The notes under the pieces are model-generated. The model was not told where the DNA came from. It searched no databases and saw only the letters and a program-made list of their open reading frames with translations. A stretch of 43,052 bases of DNA, taken from a virus. The stretch spans positions 1-43,052 of IMG/VR virus record IMGVR_UViG_3300048587_001144; one strand, given 5' to 3'. A program made the translations under genes and the position numbers. This document shows, piece by piece, positions 9,804-34,320 of this stretch. Within the stretch, counting starts at the first letter, position 1, and each line of letters starts with the position of its first letter.

Positions 9804-12002
9804 TTACGCCGATCCCTTGCTCTTGACGGCTGCTCGTTGTTCAGCCATCGAGATTCCGAAATCGAAGAAGACCGTAAAGTCGATCGCCAACTTGTTGACC
9901 TGCCATTGACCCGGCATGATCGTTGGCGTCTGGACGCCGTTGAGATAAGCGGCAATCATCGGTGTTGAGATGCCGGCAGGATCTGCCCACAGGTACCACG
10001 CCACATCAGATCCACCGAACGAGGCTGCGAGCTGCGGAATGCAGATCGGCTCATACTTACCCACGTTGATGTTGTTGGCGGGCGCGGCCTTCGTGTTCCC
10101 ACTCACGATCAGTGGCGACTTGTAGATGTTCTCTGCCGTCGCCTTGAGAGCAGGTGGAACAACCAAGTACTTCGGCATGATGCGAGTCGGATTGCCATTC
10201 TCCGTCTTCATCTCAAGGAAGAGCTGTTCTGCCGCGCTGAGTGCGGGAATGTCGAGAGCAGTGGCCGCACCGCTCATGTAATTCCCGTTGCCAGCCTGGA
10301 AGAAAGATCCATCGGCGGCGAGCAGCAAGGTGATCGTTTCGGTTTCCATGAACTCGATCGCCATCGACCCGAATCCACGGCCCTGATCGATCAGTGCCCC
10401 GAGATCGTCGTTGATCTGATCCTGTCGAGACAGGGTCAGCATCGCGCCTGAGGTATCGACTTTTCCGGAGTACGACGTTTCTGCCAGAGCGATCGACTCG
10501 AATTCACCTGCCTTGCCAAGCTTCTTGAAAGCACCCTTGCCGTACATGCGGTACCATGTGTATGGCTTGAAGTCCTTCGCGTTCTTGGCCATGGTGATCT
10601 TGGGCACAAACGAATCCGAGGCATAGAATCCAGCGAGCAAGGCCTTATTAGCCGAGTCGCTGAGAATGCCGGTGAGCGAAATGGGCGACAACTGCGACGA
10701 CGCATAGACGCCGCGGTTGCGACCCTCAATGGCGAGGATCTGATCGACAAGCAACTCGATCGGCTGCCCGCCGCGAACATGCTGGCCGTGAGCCTCAAGC
10801 ACATCGTAGCAGAGTCGACCAAGGCTGATTTGTCGATACTCACGGCTCATCGCCGCTTCAACGACCTGTTCGCCATATGCCTTCGCAACCAGCTTCTCGG
10901 GAACTTGCCGACTGTCGAGAAGAATCGCGGCCGCGTAAACGTTTGGTCCCATCGGCTTGTTCGTCCCGCCAGAAATTGCCGGTGCCTTCGGTCGGCTCGC
11001 GCGGAGAACTTCGAGCTCAGCACGCTCAGGAGTCCAGCCCTTTTCAATTGCTTTGGCAGCAATCTCGGGATGCTTCTCTGTCACCTTGTGGATGCCAGCA
11101 ATGCGGCGACTCTCAGCGGCGCGGACTCGACGCTCTTCCTCGATGGAGTAGCCGTCATCGCCGTCCTCATCTTCGTCGTCGTTATCATCGCTCGCAGCGA
11201 CCTTAACCTTCTTTTGGTTCTTGCTCTTGGCCTTCACCTTGGTCTTGGTGCTCGGGCTGCCGCCTTCTTCATCGTCGTCTTCATCGGAGTCATCTGAAGC
11301 GTGCAGACGATCGTACGTCTCCTGATATTTGGCAAGAAGTGCCGGAGTCAGGTCAGACGCCTTCAGCCCGTACGAATCGAGGAATTCATCGAAGTCCATG
11401 TCATCACCTTTCTGTGCGGCTTTGGCCGCTACGCTTACGCTCGTATCGTCGTCGGCTCCGAGCGCGACGAACGACACTTCGCGAAACTGGCCCTGCCGCA
11501 CGATGTATGCTGGGCCTGAAACCTGCTGACCGTTAACGATTGCTGTCTTGCCCTCGCGAAGTTCAACCACTCGGCTTGGGGCAACTCCGATCGATGCCTG
11601 CCAAGGGAAGTTGTTCGCGGATGTTGCAAGCACTTCTTGTGCGTGCTCACCGGAGCCGGAAACGATCCCGTCTACCGTGAGGCGGCCGCCGTCTTTGTTG
11701 AGCCCACTCGTGTGCCCAACGATCTTCCCTGGATCGTGATCACGCAGAACGGGTCGACTCTTTCGCGTGACGCTCAAACCGTTGAGGTCTACGACGACGG
11801 GTCGATACCATCCGCCGACCATCAAGGGGCCGCCGTTGTAAGCGACCATGGAGAACCGAGCGAGTTTTGGTTTTCCGTCTTCGCCAGACTCAGCAGCGGC
11901 GAACGTGACCGGCGCGGTGAACTCAAGCTTGTTGGGCAGCTTTCCTGCTGACGCACTGAGAGCGGGAAGATGCCGACGATGACGATTGCGTTTCTTCTTC
12001 AC
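9804..12002 (-). CDS. Prohead protease fused to major capsid protein
   Basis: 732 residues combining maturation protease, scaffold-like linker and capsid subunit. Residues about 25-200 look like the S78/HK97 prohead protease: a candidate His in VLRDHDPG (His89) or VGHTS (His97), Ser in WQASIGV (Ser137) and Glu in QFREVSFVALGADDD (Glu175). A very acidic, then Lys-rich segment (about 230-290) resembles a scaffold. From about 345 to the end the sequence has the Mu gpT/HK97-like capsid style, for example SREYRQISLGRL, YTWYRMYGKGAF and IMPKYLVVPPAL. The GTG start overlaps the portal stop (GTGA) with GGAGG before it. Autocleavage near residues 200-345 would release the shell protein. Confidence 0.85.
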   Translation of the reverse strand: MKKKRNRHRRHLPALSASAGKLPNKLEFTAPVTFAAAESGEDGKPKLARFSMVAYNGGPLMVGGWYRPVVVDLNGLSVTRKSRPVLRDHDPGKIVGHTSGLNKDGGRLTVDGIVSGSGEHAQEVLATSANNFPWQASIGVAPSRVVELREGKTAIVNGQQVSGPAYIVRQGQFREVSFVALGADDDTSVSVAAKAAQKGDDMDFDEFLDSYGLKASDLTPALLAKYQETYDRLHASDDSDEDDDEEGGSPSTKTKVKAKSKNQKKVKVAASDDNDDEDEDGDDGYSIEEERRVRAAESRRIAGIHKVTEKHPEIAAKAIEKGWTPERAELEVLRASRPKAPAISGGTNKPMGPNVYAAAILLDSRQVPEKLVAKAYGEQVVEAAMSREYRQISLGRLCYDVLEAHGQHVRGGQPIELLVDQILAIEGRNRGVYASSQLSPISLTGILSDSANKALLAGFYASDSFVPKITMAKNAKDFKPYTWYRMYGKGAFKKLGKAGEFESIALAETSYSGKVDTSGAMLTLSRQDQINDDLGALIDQGRGFGSMAIEFMETETITLLLAADGSFFQAGNGNYMSGAATALDIPALSAAEQLFLEMKTENGNPTRIMPKYLVVPPALKATAENIYKSPLIVSGNTKAAPANNINVGKYEPICIPQLAASFGGSDVAWYLWADPAGISTPMIAAYLNGVQTPTIMPGQWQVNKLAIDFTVFFDFGISMAEQRAAVKSKGSA

Positions 12003-20485: not shown

Positions 20486-21024
20486 CGCCGACACGACGGG
20501 CAGTTGCCAAAGACAGGCACATCACTTAGTCGCACGGTCGATCTAACTTGCTTCCGCTCTGTGCTTCCAGGGAACGCATAGGTTCCGTTCGGGTAGAGCC
20601 AGACGCCAAGGGCTGTTCCGTGATCCGTTTCGAGCGATCGACACCATTTGGGCGATGGCTCCGAAGCGGGTGCAGTCGCTGGTGATGGTCGGCTGGGACA
20701 TTGCTCAGATCCGCAGATGCCGAGTTGACATCCGCACCCATTCACGCAGCCGCACGCGGACTGCTTTGGCTTCCAAGCCACTGGCATAGTCACCGCCCAC
20801 TCGACCTCATCCGCTTGAGTAGGCATCGTTACCGCCCACTCCGTCACATCAGCCTCATGGGCTGATGGCATAGTCACCGGCCACTCGATCTCATCCGCTT
20901 GAGTAGGCATCGTTACCGCCCACTCCGTCACATCAGCCTCATGGGCTGATGGCATAGTCACCGGCCACTCGATCTCGCTTGGCGACTGACCGAGGATGCA
21001 CGATAATACGATCGAGAGAATCAT
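20479..21024 (-). CDS. Secreted Cys-rich protein with EW-VTMP repeats
   Basis: 181 residues. The N-terminus (MILSIVLSCILGQS) looks like a short signal peptide, and Cys9 could also be lipidated. Residues 17-80 hold five near-copies of E-W-(P/A)-V-T-M-P, arranged as two 28-residue units plus a partial one, encoded by an 84-bp direct repeat. A Cys cluster (ACGCVNGCGCQLGICGSEQC) follows, then a C-terminal domain ending VFGNCPSCRRW. GGAGG precedes the ATG. The start lies inside the end of the peptidase gene (86-bp overlap), so the two are translated together. It may be an envelope-located partner of that peptidase; no family is recognised. Confidence 0.6.
   Translation of the reverse strand: MILSIVLSCILGQSPSEIEWPVTMPSAHEADVTEWAVTMPTQADEIEWPVTMPSAHEADVTEWAVTMPTQADEVEWAVTMPVAWKPKQSACGCVNGCGCQLGICGSEQCPSRPSPATAPASEPSPKWCRSLETDHGTALGVWLYPNGTYAFPGSTERKQVRSTVRLSDVPVFGNCPSCRRW
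20817..20984. repeat. 84-bp direct tandem repeat, two copies plus a partial
   Basis: The unit beginning GAGTAGGCATCGTTACCGCC runs 20817-20900 and again from 20901; the second copy is essentially identical to about 20976. A diverged third part lies at about 20783-20816. The 84 bp are 28 codons, so copy changes would keep the frame of the secreted protein but also cross the 3' end of the peptidase gene. Confidence 0.8.
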
Positions 21025-22114
21025 CTCGACTTTCCTCCCTAGCTGGGCCGGACATGATCACGTCCCACTCACGCGCGGGAAATCCGCTTGCATCGGAGAA
21101 GGCGAAACTGTCCTGCTGACTAACGATCCGTTGAACGGCTGAGGCACGGACCCAGAAACCACCGAGGGGAGCGCCGTCAATCGGCTTCTCGCACCAGTCT
21201 GGACCCCATGAATTCAGGATGAAGAAGCATGGCTCGGGTTGAAGGTCATACCCGATGATCACCATTTGGTGACCCCATGACCCTCGCGGGTCGCGGAAGA
21301 GCTTGCCACCCTTCTCGTAGGCACGACCCTCAAAGCCGACATTCGAGGCGATCGTGACGGGATAGCCGTTGATCAATGCGTCGCGAACTTCTTGCCATGA
21401 AGAGACTTGTGCAGCCGACTTCAAAAAGTTTGGCTTGGCGAGATCCGCGAATTGCTTTGGAGGTCCATGACAACCCCAGTCACGCGCGAGCGAGCCGGAG
21501 TAGGCGGGCACACCCGGGGCATCCGCTTGAAGAGCACCACCACCAGACTCGAGCAGCCATGCAGCCGCCCATGCTCCAACGGACCCGTCTGATCGGCAAC
21601 CGATTCGCCCTTGACCGATAACCACTCGCGATCCGGCGTAAATCCAAGGCGGAAAGATCTCATGCCATTCCTGATCCGAACCGGTCGCAATCTGAACAGC
21701 AAGAAGGTATTCGCACGCGTGAGCAGCACCGAATGAAACGCAATCACCGACGAGTTGCTTTTTCGTCGGGATGTGATGACCCAAAACCTTGATCGCCGCA
21801 TCCCACAGAACCGACCTACGGTCCTCGGTCACCCATTGACCGCCGTCGGCTCTTGAGATCAGAAAAGGGACGAAGCGCGCGGCCAGTCGCCTCCCTTCGC
21901 TCTTGGCGATCTCCTCGCCAGCCCATCCGCAAAGGGCTTGCTTCTGCTCCGAGGTCATCACCTGGAGCTGTGATTGTTCGGCCTCAGGATTGAAAGTCAG
22001 AAACGAATAGAGGACAGCCGCGCAAACCAGCGACACCATCCCCAGAGCGATGATCGCGAAAACCCTTAAGGCTCCGCGGCTCATTCGGGTCAGGTAACGA
22101 CGGATCGAGGTCAT
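20939..22114 (-). CDS. Membrane-anchored papain-like (C1) cysteine peptidase
   Basis: 391 residues. The catalytic set of a C1-type peptidase is visible: Gln120 and Cys125 in QLVGDCVSFG, His282 in GSWGHQMVIIGYD and Asn301 in FILNSWGPDW, in the canonical order and spacing. One membrane helix at about 17-40 (RVFAIIALGMVSLVCAAVLYSF, shortened) after a basic start implies an anchor with the enzyme outside the cytoplasm. It would cut proteins or cell-wall-linked peptides. Neighbouring genes encode small membrane and secreted proteins, so it is a candidate lysis or envelope enzyme. The gene overlaps the next by 86 bp, through the DNA repeat. Confidence 0.8.
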   Translation of the reverse strand: MTSIRRYLTRMSRGALRVFAIIALGMVSLVCAAVLYSFLTFNPEAEQSQLQVMTSEQKQALCGWAGEEIAKSEGRRLAARFVPFLISRADGGQWVTEDRRSVLWDAAIKVLGHHIPTKKQLVGDCVSFGAAHACEYLLAVQIATGSDQEWHEIFPPWIYAGSRVVIGQGRIGCRSDGSVGAWAAAWLLESGGGALQADAPGVPAYSGSLARDWGCHGPPKQFADLAKPNFLKSAAQVSSWQEVRDALINGYPVTIASNVGFEGRAYEKGGKLFRDPRGSWGHQMVIIGYDLQPEPCFFILNSWGPDWCEKPIDGAPLGGFWVRASAVQRIVSQQDSFAFSDASGFPAREWDVIMSGPAREESRDDSLDRIIVHPRSVAKRDRVAGDYAISP

Positions 22115-30773: not shown

Positions 30774-31376
30774 TTAGATGTCGTCGAAATCATCCGCAGC
30801 CTTGCTGGCTGCAACTGCCGCTGCCGGTTGTGGAGACTTGGAACCGGATGGGGTCGACGCAGCAGACGCTGTCGCTGATGCTCCTCCCCAGCTTGGATCT
30901 CTCGGAACCTGCTGAACGTCTTCGTGATTTGGATTCCAGATCCCGAAGAAGTCCATCACGTTTCGCTTGGCCTTCTCACCCGACTTCTTTGTGTATTCCT
31001 CCTCTTTCACCTTGATGATGCAGTCACGCCCTTCGGCGAGCGTGAACTCGATGTCGAGATCCTCCTGACCAAGTTGCGATCGCTCGATGAGGCTGAGTTC
31101 GACCGCGACACGCGAGAGTCGTCGGTTACAGACCTTCGTCGCGTCATCGGTTTTGCCGGTCAAATAGAACCGCTCACTGATCTTCTTTCCGCTCTGATCG
31201 CCTGCCGCTGGATCACTCGGTGCCCCAGCCAAGACAACAAAATCAAGAGCAACATAATTGTCCTCGACCATCTCTCGAACCGTATCGACGAGGACGTGAT
31301 ACATCCCGGGAGCCGGGTAATTTCCGCCACCTTCGATATCCTTCTCTGAAACCTCTGAAGTCGCTACACGCACCAT
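30774..31376 (-). CDS. Phage single-stranded DNA-binding-like protein
   Basis: 200 residues: a beta-rich core (YHVLVDTVREMVEDNYVALDFVV, KISERFYLTGKTDDATK, DIEFTLAEGRDCIIKVKEEEY) consistent with an OB-fold, then a flexible Ala/Ser/Pro linker and the acidic end AADDFDDI. A disordered tail ending in DDFDDI is analogous to the partner-binding tip of SSB proteins. It would coat single-stranded DNA during replication and recombination. GGAGG lies 7 bases before the ATG. It follows the RecA-like ATPase and precedes the helicase, which agrees with the role. Confidence 0.72.
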   Translation of the reverse strand: MVRVATSEVSEKDIEGGGNYPAPGMYHVLVDTVREMVEDNYVALDFVVLAGAPSDPAAGDQSGKKISERFYLTGKTDDATKVCNRRLSRVAVELSLIERSQLGQEDLDIEFTLAEGRDCIIKVKEEEYTKKSGEKAKRNVMDFFGIWNPNHEDVQQVPRDPSWGGASATASAASTPSGSKSPQPAAAVAASKAADDFDDI

Positions 31377-31399: not shown

Positions 31400-31552
31400 C
31401 TACGTCAATGCCTTGAGGACGGCATCTGCCTCGTTAAAACTGTGAATCCACGTGGGAGGGTACTCAAGACTTTGAAGGCCGATCTCCCACACGCGATCGG
31501 CACCAAATTTCGCCACGACACCCTGAAGGAGCCGCGGCCATGTCAGTTTTTT
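31400..31552 (-). CDS. -1 frame extension of the ATPase (48 residues)
   Basis: After the slippery site, the -1 frame reads LTWPRLLQGVVAKFGADRV and on through WEIGLQSLEYPPTWIH to a TAG at 31400-31402. The 48 codons are GC-rich with coding-like composition and fill the gap before the SSB-like gene. No ATG exists in this frame. The only candidate independent start is GTG at 31516 (VAKFGADRV), 38 residues, lying inside the hairpin with a weak AGG close by. The frameshift product would be a 485-residue ATPase. Confidence 0.55.
   Translation of the reverse strand, partial: KKLTWPRLLQGVVAKFGADRVWEIGLQSLEYPPTWIHSFNEADAVLKALT
31512..31552 (-). promoter_or_regulatory. Programmed -1 frameshift signal (A_AAA_AAC + hairpin)
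   Basis: The last two sense codons of the ATPase, with the preceding A, are A AAA AAC, immediately followed by the stop TGA. After a 7-nt spacer (TGACATG), GCCGCGGC (31538-31531) pairs with GTCGTGGC (31519-31512) over 8 bp with two G-U pairs and an 11-nt loop. Slippery heptamer, 5-9 nt spacer and stem-loop match the standard design of -1 frameshift sites. Confidence 0.65.
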
Positions 31553-32856
31553 GCGACGGCGAGTTCGTCGTGAGCCTGTTGATGAGCGACCTTCATTGCC
31601 TTCTTTGAGAGGGACTCGATCAGCTCTTCAGCCTGCACCTCGGTGAGATCACGAGCCGATTTGACGTTTCGCTTGGCGAGAATCTGGGCCCAGACTTCAG
31701 GGTCGGTGATTTTGCACGCAGCCTTGTAGTCTCGGATGCGACCAAGCTGAATGTCAGTCACTGCGCCGACATGAGGAACGACGGCTGCTGAAGGAGATTC
31801 GGTGTTTTTGGGCTCAACGCTCTTCTTTACCTCGTTGATCGATGGTTGTTGTGAGGGGGTCGGCGTTGCTGCAGGAGCGGCAGCTTTCACCTCTGTTCGC
31901 TGCTTGGCCATCCGGTCTGCCCGGTCCAGTCGTTCTGCCTTCAACGCCTCTGCTTCCCGTTCGGCTTCAGCGGCGGCCAAGCGCATCGCGGTCAGCTCTT
32001 CCTCGGACATCTTCTCTTCAACGACTCGTTCGCCCGGTTTGAGCTTAGAGTAGTCTGGAGGCGAGAGAATGTACTTTCGGATGGACGCTGGCGTTGCTGT
32101 AGGAATTCGCGGTGGAAGCAGGCTGATCCATTGCAGATCACCGTCGACTATTTCGTGTTTTGCGAGACGATGCTTCAGCGGAATCGCTGAAGGAACCTCA
32201 GGAACGACACCTTTTGAATCGGCTACACGCTCGAGCCGAAGGTAGAGAGAGGCGAGTTGGAAAAGCGTCTCCTTACCCTTTGGTTCCTTCTTGCCGGTGG
32301 GAGTGCCCCCCTTGAACACTTTTCGAAGGTGGCTTGTGAAAACGAACGTCTCACATCGAGCACGGATGTCGACCAAGATTGACTTCCAAAAATCCTTCGC
32401 TGCACCCTGCATGAGCGGAGCAGCGGCCGCAAACTGTCCAGCGGTGTAGCCGAACTGTGCCGGATTTTGGCGGACGAATTCAACGAGACCGTTCTCGATT
32501 TCGCTGACTGGATCAAGCACTATCACGCGGTACTGGCCCGGCTTAATCGACCGAACGTGAGCGAGCCACCAATTGAATAGATCTATCGGCTTATAGCCCT
32601 TTGGATGCTTCTTCAGCATTTCAGTCGACATACTCACTCGATGGAAACCGAGAGTCTTGTACGTCTCCGCGCCGTCCTCTGCGTCATAGATCAGCGTGTC
32701 GGAGCCAGGACAAATCGAAAGCCCAAAGATCGTCTTGCCAGTGCCGAAATCACCTGTCAGTCCAATGACACCAAGATCAAAACCCCCAGGCCAAAGCGGT
32801 TGACGCTCAGTCGTTGTTTCGCCAGACTCCGCGGGCGGATTCGCTACTTTCACCAT
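31543..32856 (-). CDS. RecA-like P-loop ATPase (phage AAA_24 type)
   Basis: 437 residues from the ATG at 32856, which has GAGG 9 bases upstream; a TTG at 32871 is the alternative. Walker A is GDFGTGKT (35-42), followed by TLIYDAEDGAETYKTLGF, and Walker B is YRVIVLDPVSEIE. It resembles the phage ATPases encoded beside SSB and Gp157 genes, thought to load recombinases or replicative helicases. The C-terminal third is a coiled coil (EEELTAMRLAAAEAEREAEAL) plus a small helical domain (PEVWAQILAKRNVKSARDLTEVQAEELI). It ends in the slippery sequence described separately, so two products may be made. Confidence 0.78.
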   Translation of the reverse strand: MVKVANPPAESGETTTERQPLWPGGFDLGVIGLTGDFGTGKTIFGLSICPGSDTLIYDAEDGAETYKTLGFHRVSMSTEMLKKHPKGYKPIDLFNWWLAHVRSIKPGQYRVIVLDPVSEIENGLVEFVRQNPAQFGYTAGQFAAAAPLMQGAAKDFWKSILVDIRARCETFVFTSHLRKVFKGGTPTGKKEPKGKETLFQLASLYLRLERVADSKGVVPEVPSAIPLKHRLAKHEIVDGDLQWISLLPPRIPTATPASIRKYILSPPDYSKLKPGERVVEEKMSEEELTAMRLAAAEAEREAEALKAERLDRADRMAKQRTEVKAAAPAATPTPSQQPSINEVKKSVEPKNTESPSAAVVPHVGAVTDIQLGRIRDYKAACKITDPEVWAQILAKRNVKSARDLTEVQAEELIESLSKKAMKVAHQQAHDELAVAKN

Positions 32857-32898: not shown

Positions 32899-33459
32899 TC
32901 AGGAGATCCGAAGATGCTCGCCTCGCTCTCCAAGGTGGGCGAAGGGGAGGGGCTCGCCCGTCAGGAGTTTCTCGCGAATTGCATCGGTGTTGATGGATTC
33001 AACGATTCGCTTCGAGATGTAGGCTTCGGGAACAGCCTTTGGATCAGAGAGGATGACGGGCAAGGCTCCACCGTTCTTGCAACGTTTTGCCTTGAAGATC
33101 CCATCCTTTTCGCCAATGGCCGGTAGTCCCATGTTCTGCATGAACTGATGGAGCCGACGTTTCATCCAGTCCATGGCGGAGCGAATTGTCTTAATGCGTG
33201 CGGCAAGCCGATCCTGCTCAGCTACCAATGCAGTCAGATGAAGTTCTCGTTCACGATAAACCTTCAGGTAGCCCTGAATCTTTCGATCCCTCTCTTCGCC
33301 AAGCTCCGCGAACCACTTGTCGATAGCTCGCTCAACCTCTTCCTCGGTGACCTCGCCTCCCATTTCGGCAAGCAGATCATCAAGAGCGAGAAAATCATCC
33401 TCGATGTCGAGGAGTGTTCGTCGTTTCGATGTCTCTGGTGGACTTACTTTGATGGCCAT
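32899..33459 (-). CDS. Siphovirus Gp157-family protein
   Basis: 186 residues. A long helical N-terminal half (LLDIEDDFLALDDLLAEMGGEVTEEEVERAIDKWF, shortened; then RDRKIQGYLKVYRERE) is followed by the conserved AARIKTIRSAMDWMKRRLHQFM. The last part, VILSDPKAVPEAYIS, then the IREKLLTGEPLPFAHL segment, matches the Gp157 family of siphophage early proteins. Family members occur with recombination and SSB genes; their biochemical role is unsettled. GGAGG lies 7 bases before the ATG. Confidence 0.85.
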   Translation of the reverse strand: MAIKVSPPETSKRRTLLDIEDDFLALDDLLAEMGGEVTEEEVERAIDKWFAELGEERDRKIQGYLKVYRERELHLTALVAEQDRLAARIKTIRSAMDWMKRRLHQFMQNMGLPAIGEKDGIFKAKRCKNGGALPVILSDPKAVPEAYISKRIVESINTDAIREKLLTGEPLPFAHLGERGEHLRIS

Positions 33460-33540: not shown

Positions 33541-34320
33541 TCACTCAGCAGGAATGAGAACGCCCGCTTCGTTGAGCTTGTATTTCTTGTTGGGCTCGAT
33601 GCCGTTTTCGCCGGTGTAGCCCGTCGTCAGTCGATAGCGACCGGCAGCGAAGTCGTAGTATCGAATCTGGAGAGTGCCTCTGTCTCCAGCCGTGGCAGTG
33701 CCTCTGTCTCCAGCCGTGGCAGTGCCTCTGTCTCCAGCCGTGGCAGTGCCTCCGTATCCAGCCGTGGCAGTGCCTCTGTCTCCAGCCGTGGCAGTGCCTC
33801 CGTATCCAGCCGTGGCAGTGCCTCCGTATCCAGCCGTGGCAGTGCCTCCGTATCCAGCCGTGGCAGTGCCTCTGTCTCCAGCCGTGGCAGTGCCTCCGTA
33901 TCCAGCCGTGGCAGTGCCTCTGTCTCCAGCCGTGGCAGTGCCTCCCACGATCACCGATCCAGGATGATGCACCGCGATAATGGCAGTCGCTGTGAAGCGG
34001 TCACCGGTGTACACGACCCGGCATCGCGGAAACTTCACCTTGTCGCCACCAAGATCGACGACCTCTGATTCCTGGACCGCAACAACGAGCCACTTGGCGT
34101 CTGGTTTCCAGTTGAGGAGATCGCCGTCACCTTCTCCCTTCAGAAGGCCGTGCAAGCCAAACCCGCAACAGGCTTCTTCACTCCAATCGGGTGCAGAAAC
34201 CTCACCTGATTCCGGCCAGAGAAATCGATTGTGGCTCGTCATGTCTTTCCTGCATGTCCGCAGGGCAAGGACTTCGCCAGGGAGTAGTTCGATAGTCGGA
34301 ATTTCAATGACGCTGCTCAC
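33541..34320 (-). CDS. Phage protein with GTATAG[D/Y][R/G] octapeptide repeats
   Basis: 259 residues. The N-terminal domain (VLALRTCRKDMTSHNRF, then ACCGFGLHGLLKGEGDGDLL and WLVVAVQESEVVDLGGDKVKFPR, shortened) is a globular phage early-gene domain with a C-G-x-G-L-H-G motif. Residues about 129-216 are eleven consecutive copies of G-T-A-T-A-G-(D/Y)-(R/G), a repeat expected to stack as a left- or right-handed beta-helix. After it, IRYYDFAAGRYRLTTGYTG closes the protein. Similar proteins with GTATAGD repeats recur in phage early regions. Role unknown; a rod-like DNA mimic or scaffold are possibilities. GGAGG and a GTG start at 34320. Confidence 0.72.
   Translation of the reverse strand: MSSVIEIPTIELLPGEVLALRTCRKDMTSHNRFLWPESGEVSAPDWSEEACCGFGLHGLLKGEGDGDLLNWKPDAKWLVVAVQESEVVDLGGDKVKFPRCRVVYTGDRFTATAIIAVHHPGSVIVGGTATAGDRGTATAGYGGTATAGDRGTATAGYGGTATAGYGGTATAGYGGTATAGDRGTATAGYGGTATAGDRGTATAGDRGTATAGDRGTLQIRYYDFAAGRYRLTTGYTGENGIEPNKKYKLNEAGVLIPAE
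33674..33937. repeat. Eleven tandem 24-bp repeats
   Basis: The unit GTGCCTCTGTCTCCAGCCGT plus GGCA (plus strand) repeats eleven times without spacers. There are two main variants: CCTCTGTCT (encoding D-R) and CCTCCGTAT (encoding Y-G). Variant order, as read in the protein, is R-G-R-G-G-G-R-G-R-R-R, an irregular pattern that suggests recombination between units. Each unit is 8 codons, so copy changes keep frame. Confidence 0.9.

Follow-up and report, generated by a model that had tools for sequence, protein, structure and literature searches.

A putative -1 ribosomal frameshift signal that would append a small helical domain to a Sak4-like phage recombinase

The viral DNA analysed here (IMG/VR record IMGVR_UViG_3300048587_001144, 43,052 nucleotides, referred to as the window) carries, at the 3′ end of a RecA-like ATPase gene, what is probably a conserved -1 frameshift site, through which some of the recombinase molecules would gain a small additional domain. 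This interpretation, advanced in an initial annotation of the window, is supported computationally by the occurrence of the arrangement in three of three genes that bear the tail. The evidence consists of the slippery motif, its spacing, the hairpin, the register, a coding signal in the tail, the homology of the tail and its predicted fold. The slip looks selected and not accidental, since the arrangement is also present in two distant relatives, in one case on a different recombinase.

In the proposed mechanism, ribosomes would reach the hairpin while the codons AAA and AAC occupy the P and A sites. Most would terminate at the adjacent TGA, and a minority would slip one base back and read a further 48 codons. 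The product of the slip would be an ATPase of 485 residues that carries an additional three-helix domain at its C-terminus. Both the occurrence of the slip and its frequency are what we infer from the sequence, and the extension may contact the SSB-like protein or another replication partner. The unit as a whole, which comprises a shared C-terminal domain, the slippery motif, the hairpin and the -1 tail, probably sets the ratio of the two recombinase forms, because distant genes of planctomycete phages or prophages have kept it on two recombinases.

The frameshift signal in the window

The elements of the signal, all of which lie on the minus strand, and the surrounding genes are as follows.

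31546-31552, minus strand: slippery heptamer A_AAA_AAC, in frame, covering the two final sense codons
31543-31545, minus strand: 0-frame stop TGA, within the spacer
31512-31538, minus strand: stem-loop, the proposed frameshift stimulator, with an 8-bp stem (31538-31531 / 31519-31512)
31400-31546, minus strand: proposed -1-frame extension, three-helix YPPTW domain, 48 codons plus TAG
31400-31516, minus strand: rival independent ORF from GTG 31516, 38 aa, with AGGG 4-5 nt upstream
31543-32856, minus strand: Sak4-like AAA_24 ATPase, 0-frame product, 437 aa from ATG 32856
30774-31376, minus strand: SSB-like gene, downstream (phmmer E 1.7e-10 to a 175-aa protein of locus L311)
32899-33459, minus strand: Gp157-like gene, upstream, same recombination module (Pfam PF05565, 88.2 bits)

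The 3′ end of the ATPase gene reads ...GTC GCA AAA AAC TGA. The heptamer followed by TGA, the 7-nt spacing, the 8-bp hairpin and the -1 frame open for 48 codons to a TAG 23 nt before the SSB-like gene had all been noted in the initial annotation and were recovered here, with the heptamer at 31552-31546 and the stop at 31545-31543; two of the eight base pairs are G-U. The spacer between heptamer and stem is TGACATG, and three further base pairs form past a 1x1 internal loop. No other in-frame A_AAA_AAC occurs in the genes of the window. Read from CTG 31546 to TAG 31402-31400, the -1 frame encodes LTWPRLLQGVVAKFGADRVWEIGLQSLEYPPTWIHSFNEADAVLKALT, and the SSB-like gene begins at ATG 31376.

Two properties of the signal count against frameshifting. 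With z scores of -2.9 over 40 nt and only -1.4 over 48 nt, the hairpin (-18.3 kcal/mol) is by itself only moderately unusual. Furthermore, A_AAA_AAC is a weak site of low efficiency in E. coli, yet it is used in insertion sequences, with one case proven (PMC4066793). A terminator function for the hairpin was rejected for lack of a T tract directly after it. Of all hairpins that follow a stop in the window, the strongest (-21.6 kcal/mol, 40 nt) is located at 9804 on the minus strand, just 3′ of the capsid gene, and is a possible terminator.

The ATPase gene and its neighbourhood

The ATPase ORF is also open from TTG 32871; an SD-like sequence precedes ATG 32856 and none precedes the TTG. With ATG 32856 as the start that has a ribosome-binding site, the fused product would be 485 residues long. 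The earlier count of exactly 485 codons thus holds for this start, but we attach no weight to the precise figure as evidence. The protein matches the AAA_24 profile of Pfam (36.5 bits against a cut-off of 27) and has the Walker A sequence GDFGTGKT. It gave no match to a Sak4 PHROG at E 1e-3, and its homolog at locus L265 (see below) reaches E 0.0057 against phrog_124.

The ATPase gene sits between the Gp157-like and SSB-like genes. The latter is homologous to the gene that follows the tail at locus L279, and the 175-aa L311 protein that it matches itself matches SSB families. The window also encodes a lambda-type portal, a GpA-type terminase and an integrase, and the best relatives of the terminase among bacterial genomes are almost all from Planctomycetota. 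Elsewhere on the minus strand, a 259-aa ORF (33541-34320) contains about a dozen tandem GTATAG[D/Y][R/G] units, with the opposite strand also open, and a papain-family cysteine protease domain (20939-22114) has relatives in other planctomycete phage contigs.

Relatives of the ATPase and of the tail

Searches of phages, plasmids, viral contigs (by protein scan, C-terminal scan and Walker A pattern) and genome contigs gave no relative of the ATPase, nor did 397 genomes of one planctomycete class; the Planctomycetota with related terminases carry other AAA_24 proteins, not the window ATPase. Among 398 genomes of a second class, Planctomycetia, three homologs were found (L265, L266 and L267, 42-44% identity), and a further search gave a fourth, L285, on a contig that breaks off ahead of the stop codon. 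In L266 the critical stretch falls in an assembly gap. The L267/L282 relative has no tail, slippery motif or comparable hairpin.

Two homologs of the tail are present in the Planctomycetia genomes. At L265 the homolog (MVALIERHGRERVFLAAEQLLGYPPTW...) lies downstream of the ATPase stop. The third tail, MFRPLLARYGPAVVYLAGIKELRFPPTW... at L279, was obtained with a two-sequence profile (E 3.7e-5); here the preceding gene is a different one, for a RecT-like annealing protein (phrog_561, E 1.2e-22), and the tail is followed, as in the window, by an SSB-like gene and a RecD-like helicase. The C-terminal helical domain of the ATPase is common to the RecT-like protein of L279/L311 (E 2e-6), and we interpret its presence on RecT-like and Sak4-like recombinases as domain exchange between unrelated annealing proteins. 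We lean towards the view that a C-terminal cassette, made up of the helical domain, the -1 signal and the 48-residue domain, was attached to two phage annealing proteins that are unrelated to each other, with a fixed minority of the molecules extended. The shared helical domain itself has weak similarity to GemA (E 0.06-0.24). At L265 an apparent host surface-protein gene begins at about 3128, right after the tail, and given this gene the contig may be chimeric or contain an integration junction.

Judged by homology and coding character, the tail is a real conserved domain. Its codon usage in the window is typical of genes (9.09 bits, compared with 7.59+-5.66 for in-frame and -9.71+-5.31 for off-frame sequence), and all three tails are scored as coding. 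A leucine and a tryptophan right after the junction align across the three tails, and the similarity between the window and L279 upstream of the ATG has a p of about 0.01. AlphaFold2 with the three-row alignment predicts a compact domain that begins at the junction, with helices at residues 5-14, 16-27 and 37-47 (pLDDT 92.3, pTM 0.71; pLDDT 63.8 from the single sequence). Fold searches with the predicted domain gave no significant match.

Recurrence of the arrangement

Each of the three tails is preceded by a slippery motif 6-7 nt before a hairpin: A_AAA_AAC in the window, T_TTC at L265 and T_TTT at L279. The three hairpins have energies of -17 to -21 kcal/mol (36-nt fold), and in longer folds the L279 stem reaches to 2 nt from the motif. 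L265 has no heptamer; T_TTC stands directly before the stop, 6 nt from an 11-bp hairpin whose 3′ arm contains an ATG 23 nt after the stop. At L279, T_TTT lies seven codons before the stop; a strong hairpin, with the stop in its loop, is about 6-7 nt away from the motif. In E. coli, tetramers of the form Z_ZZN slip as well, T_TTC and T_TTT ranking second and third among them (PMC4066793). The stop-to-start gaps of 26 (window), 23 (L265) and 44 nt (L279) differ by multiples of three, and hence the -1 register is kept in all three. The alignment proposed in the initial annotation, made with the few relatives available, supports its reading: the exact heptamer and the stem sequence are not conserved, whereas the arrangement of motif, 6-7 nt spacing, hairpin and -1 tail is found in every case.

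We counted the A/T slippery motifs that lie in frame and have, 4-9 nt further on, a hairpin with at least 8 bp and a strength of at least -15 kcal/mol; this motif set and hairpin criterion were chosen with the loci already in view. The genes of the window (11,433 codons) contain 188 in-frame A/T slippery motifs, and the only one with such a hairpin is the present site, in agreement with the earlier claim that the conjunction is unlikely by chance. The single passing site of L280 (2,501 codons) is the ATPase end, one of the two in L311 (5,216 codons) is the RecT end, and L282, which encodes the tail-less ATPase, has none in 2,777 codons. Of 2,123 gene ends taken from planctomycete loci, only four pass, among them those of the three tail-bearing genes, and this result hardly shifts with the thresholds; about 0.05% of the other gene ends pass, a null set that includes many spurious ORFs. 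Hairpins of this strength are found at about 10% of gene ends, and about 7% of gene ends have an A/T slippery motif within their final eight codons. The recurrence concerns three loci only, whose junctions are probably homologous and not fully independent.

Alternative explanations

The main competitor of frameshifting, which we consider improbable though still to be reckoned with, is that the tail is a separate small gene (starting at GTG 31516 in the window and at ATG in the relatives) that is translationally coupled to the ATPase: the hairpin would cover the start codon and be opened by ribosomes finishing the ATPase. A GTG ORF inside the hairpin had already been named as an alternative, and GTG 31516, the only canonical start for the tail in the window, does fall within the 3′ arm of the stem. 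In all three cases the upstream stop is followed after 23-44 nt by a start codon, which in the window and L265 belongs to the 3′ arm of a hairpin beginning 3-4 nt past that stop, and coupling through RNA unfolding is already known (PMC12548453); at L279, however, the hairpin does not cover the ATG. The window has an SD-like AGGG (-6.4 kcal/mol) and L279 a GGAG 9 nt upstream of an ATG near the domain start, but the L265 ATG has no evident SD. By codon usage, the stretch between the stop and the tail's own start is neutral in the window, coding-like at L279 and non-coding-like at L265 (-5.78), the last being in favour of a separate gene. The GTG corresponds to residue 11 of the tail, within predicted helix 1, and its product would lack the first half of that helix; similarly, the LxW pattern is kept upstream of the starts. 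Coupling also leaves unexplained why a slippery motif stands at 6-7 nt in every case and why the -1 register is constant. Frameshifting, unlike coupling, accounts for the conjunction of motif and hairpin and for the fixed register, but the two mechanisms could coexist.

Relatives that lack the slippery run or stem and keep the small ORF with its own start codon had been named as the case that would speak against frameshifting. Both relatives do have an ATG near the domain start, yet they retain a slippery tetramer and a stem. A reading of L265, with its own ATG and no heptamer, as a counterexample was reversed by the T_TTC and T_TTT tetramers and by comparison of the L279 hairpin with the gene-end background. 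It is very unlikely that the true gene is a single frame with seven A residues and that the A6 run arose by misassembly or by a recent indel that split a fused ATPase-tail gene: an indel is likely in such a run and one added A would give a continuous 485-codon frame, but the same -1 break occurs at the same protein position in two independent genomes with different run sequences, each with a hairpin, and because the break recurs we reject sequencing error. We give equally little credence to a chance association, in which an A run happens to precede the stop, the GC-rich hairpin has no connection with it and the gap happens to contain an open frame. The single elements are common in this composition, as the gene-end frequencies above indicate, but homologs exist for the tail, its codon pattern resembles that of genes, and all three cases show the conjunction.

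Comparison with known systems

The mechanism itself is of a known kind. Bacterial -1 frameshifting in insertion sequences and E. coli dnaX likewise involves a slippery motif (X_XXZ_ZZN or Z_ZZN), a short spacer and a stem-loop, with a stop in or just after the motif and a coding -1 frame (PMC4066793, PMC5009743). It differs in that the host gene of the window is a predicted phage recombinase of the single-strand-annealing type and that the motif sequence varies between relatives. Sak4 of phage HK620 is also a RecA-like ATPase recombinase adjoining a phage SSB gene, but it is about half the size of the window ATPase (25.6 kDa), and the portion of its description consulted mentions no extension or frameshift (PMC5928155). 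Our non-exhaustive literature search found no report of a frameshift on annealing proteins.

The programmed frameshifts so far described in tailed phages mostly concern virion assembly. If the present one is real, recombination in a phage would be regulated by ribosomal frameshifting; the ratio of short to extended forms would be under selection, the geometry having been kept despite a changed motif and stem and an exchanged recombinase; and gene callers would overlook a domain in such recombinases. A frameshift of this kind is directly testable with a reporter. The lambda G/GT tail-assembly chaperone is similar in that a phage gene with an infrequent -1 slip close to its 3′ end yields an extended protein, and differs from the window in gene, function and sequence; in some tailed phages a stimulator seemingly plays no part (PMC5009743). 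Closer in outcome are the C-terminal Ig-like domains of tailed phages, in which one small domain is frameshifted onto a fraction of different phage proteins (PMC5009743), although here the domain would be a helical one of 48 residues on DNA-recombination proteins instead of an Ig fold on virion proteins.
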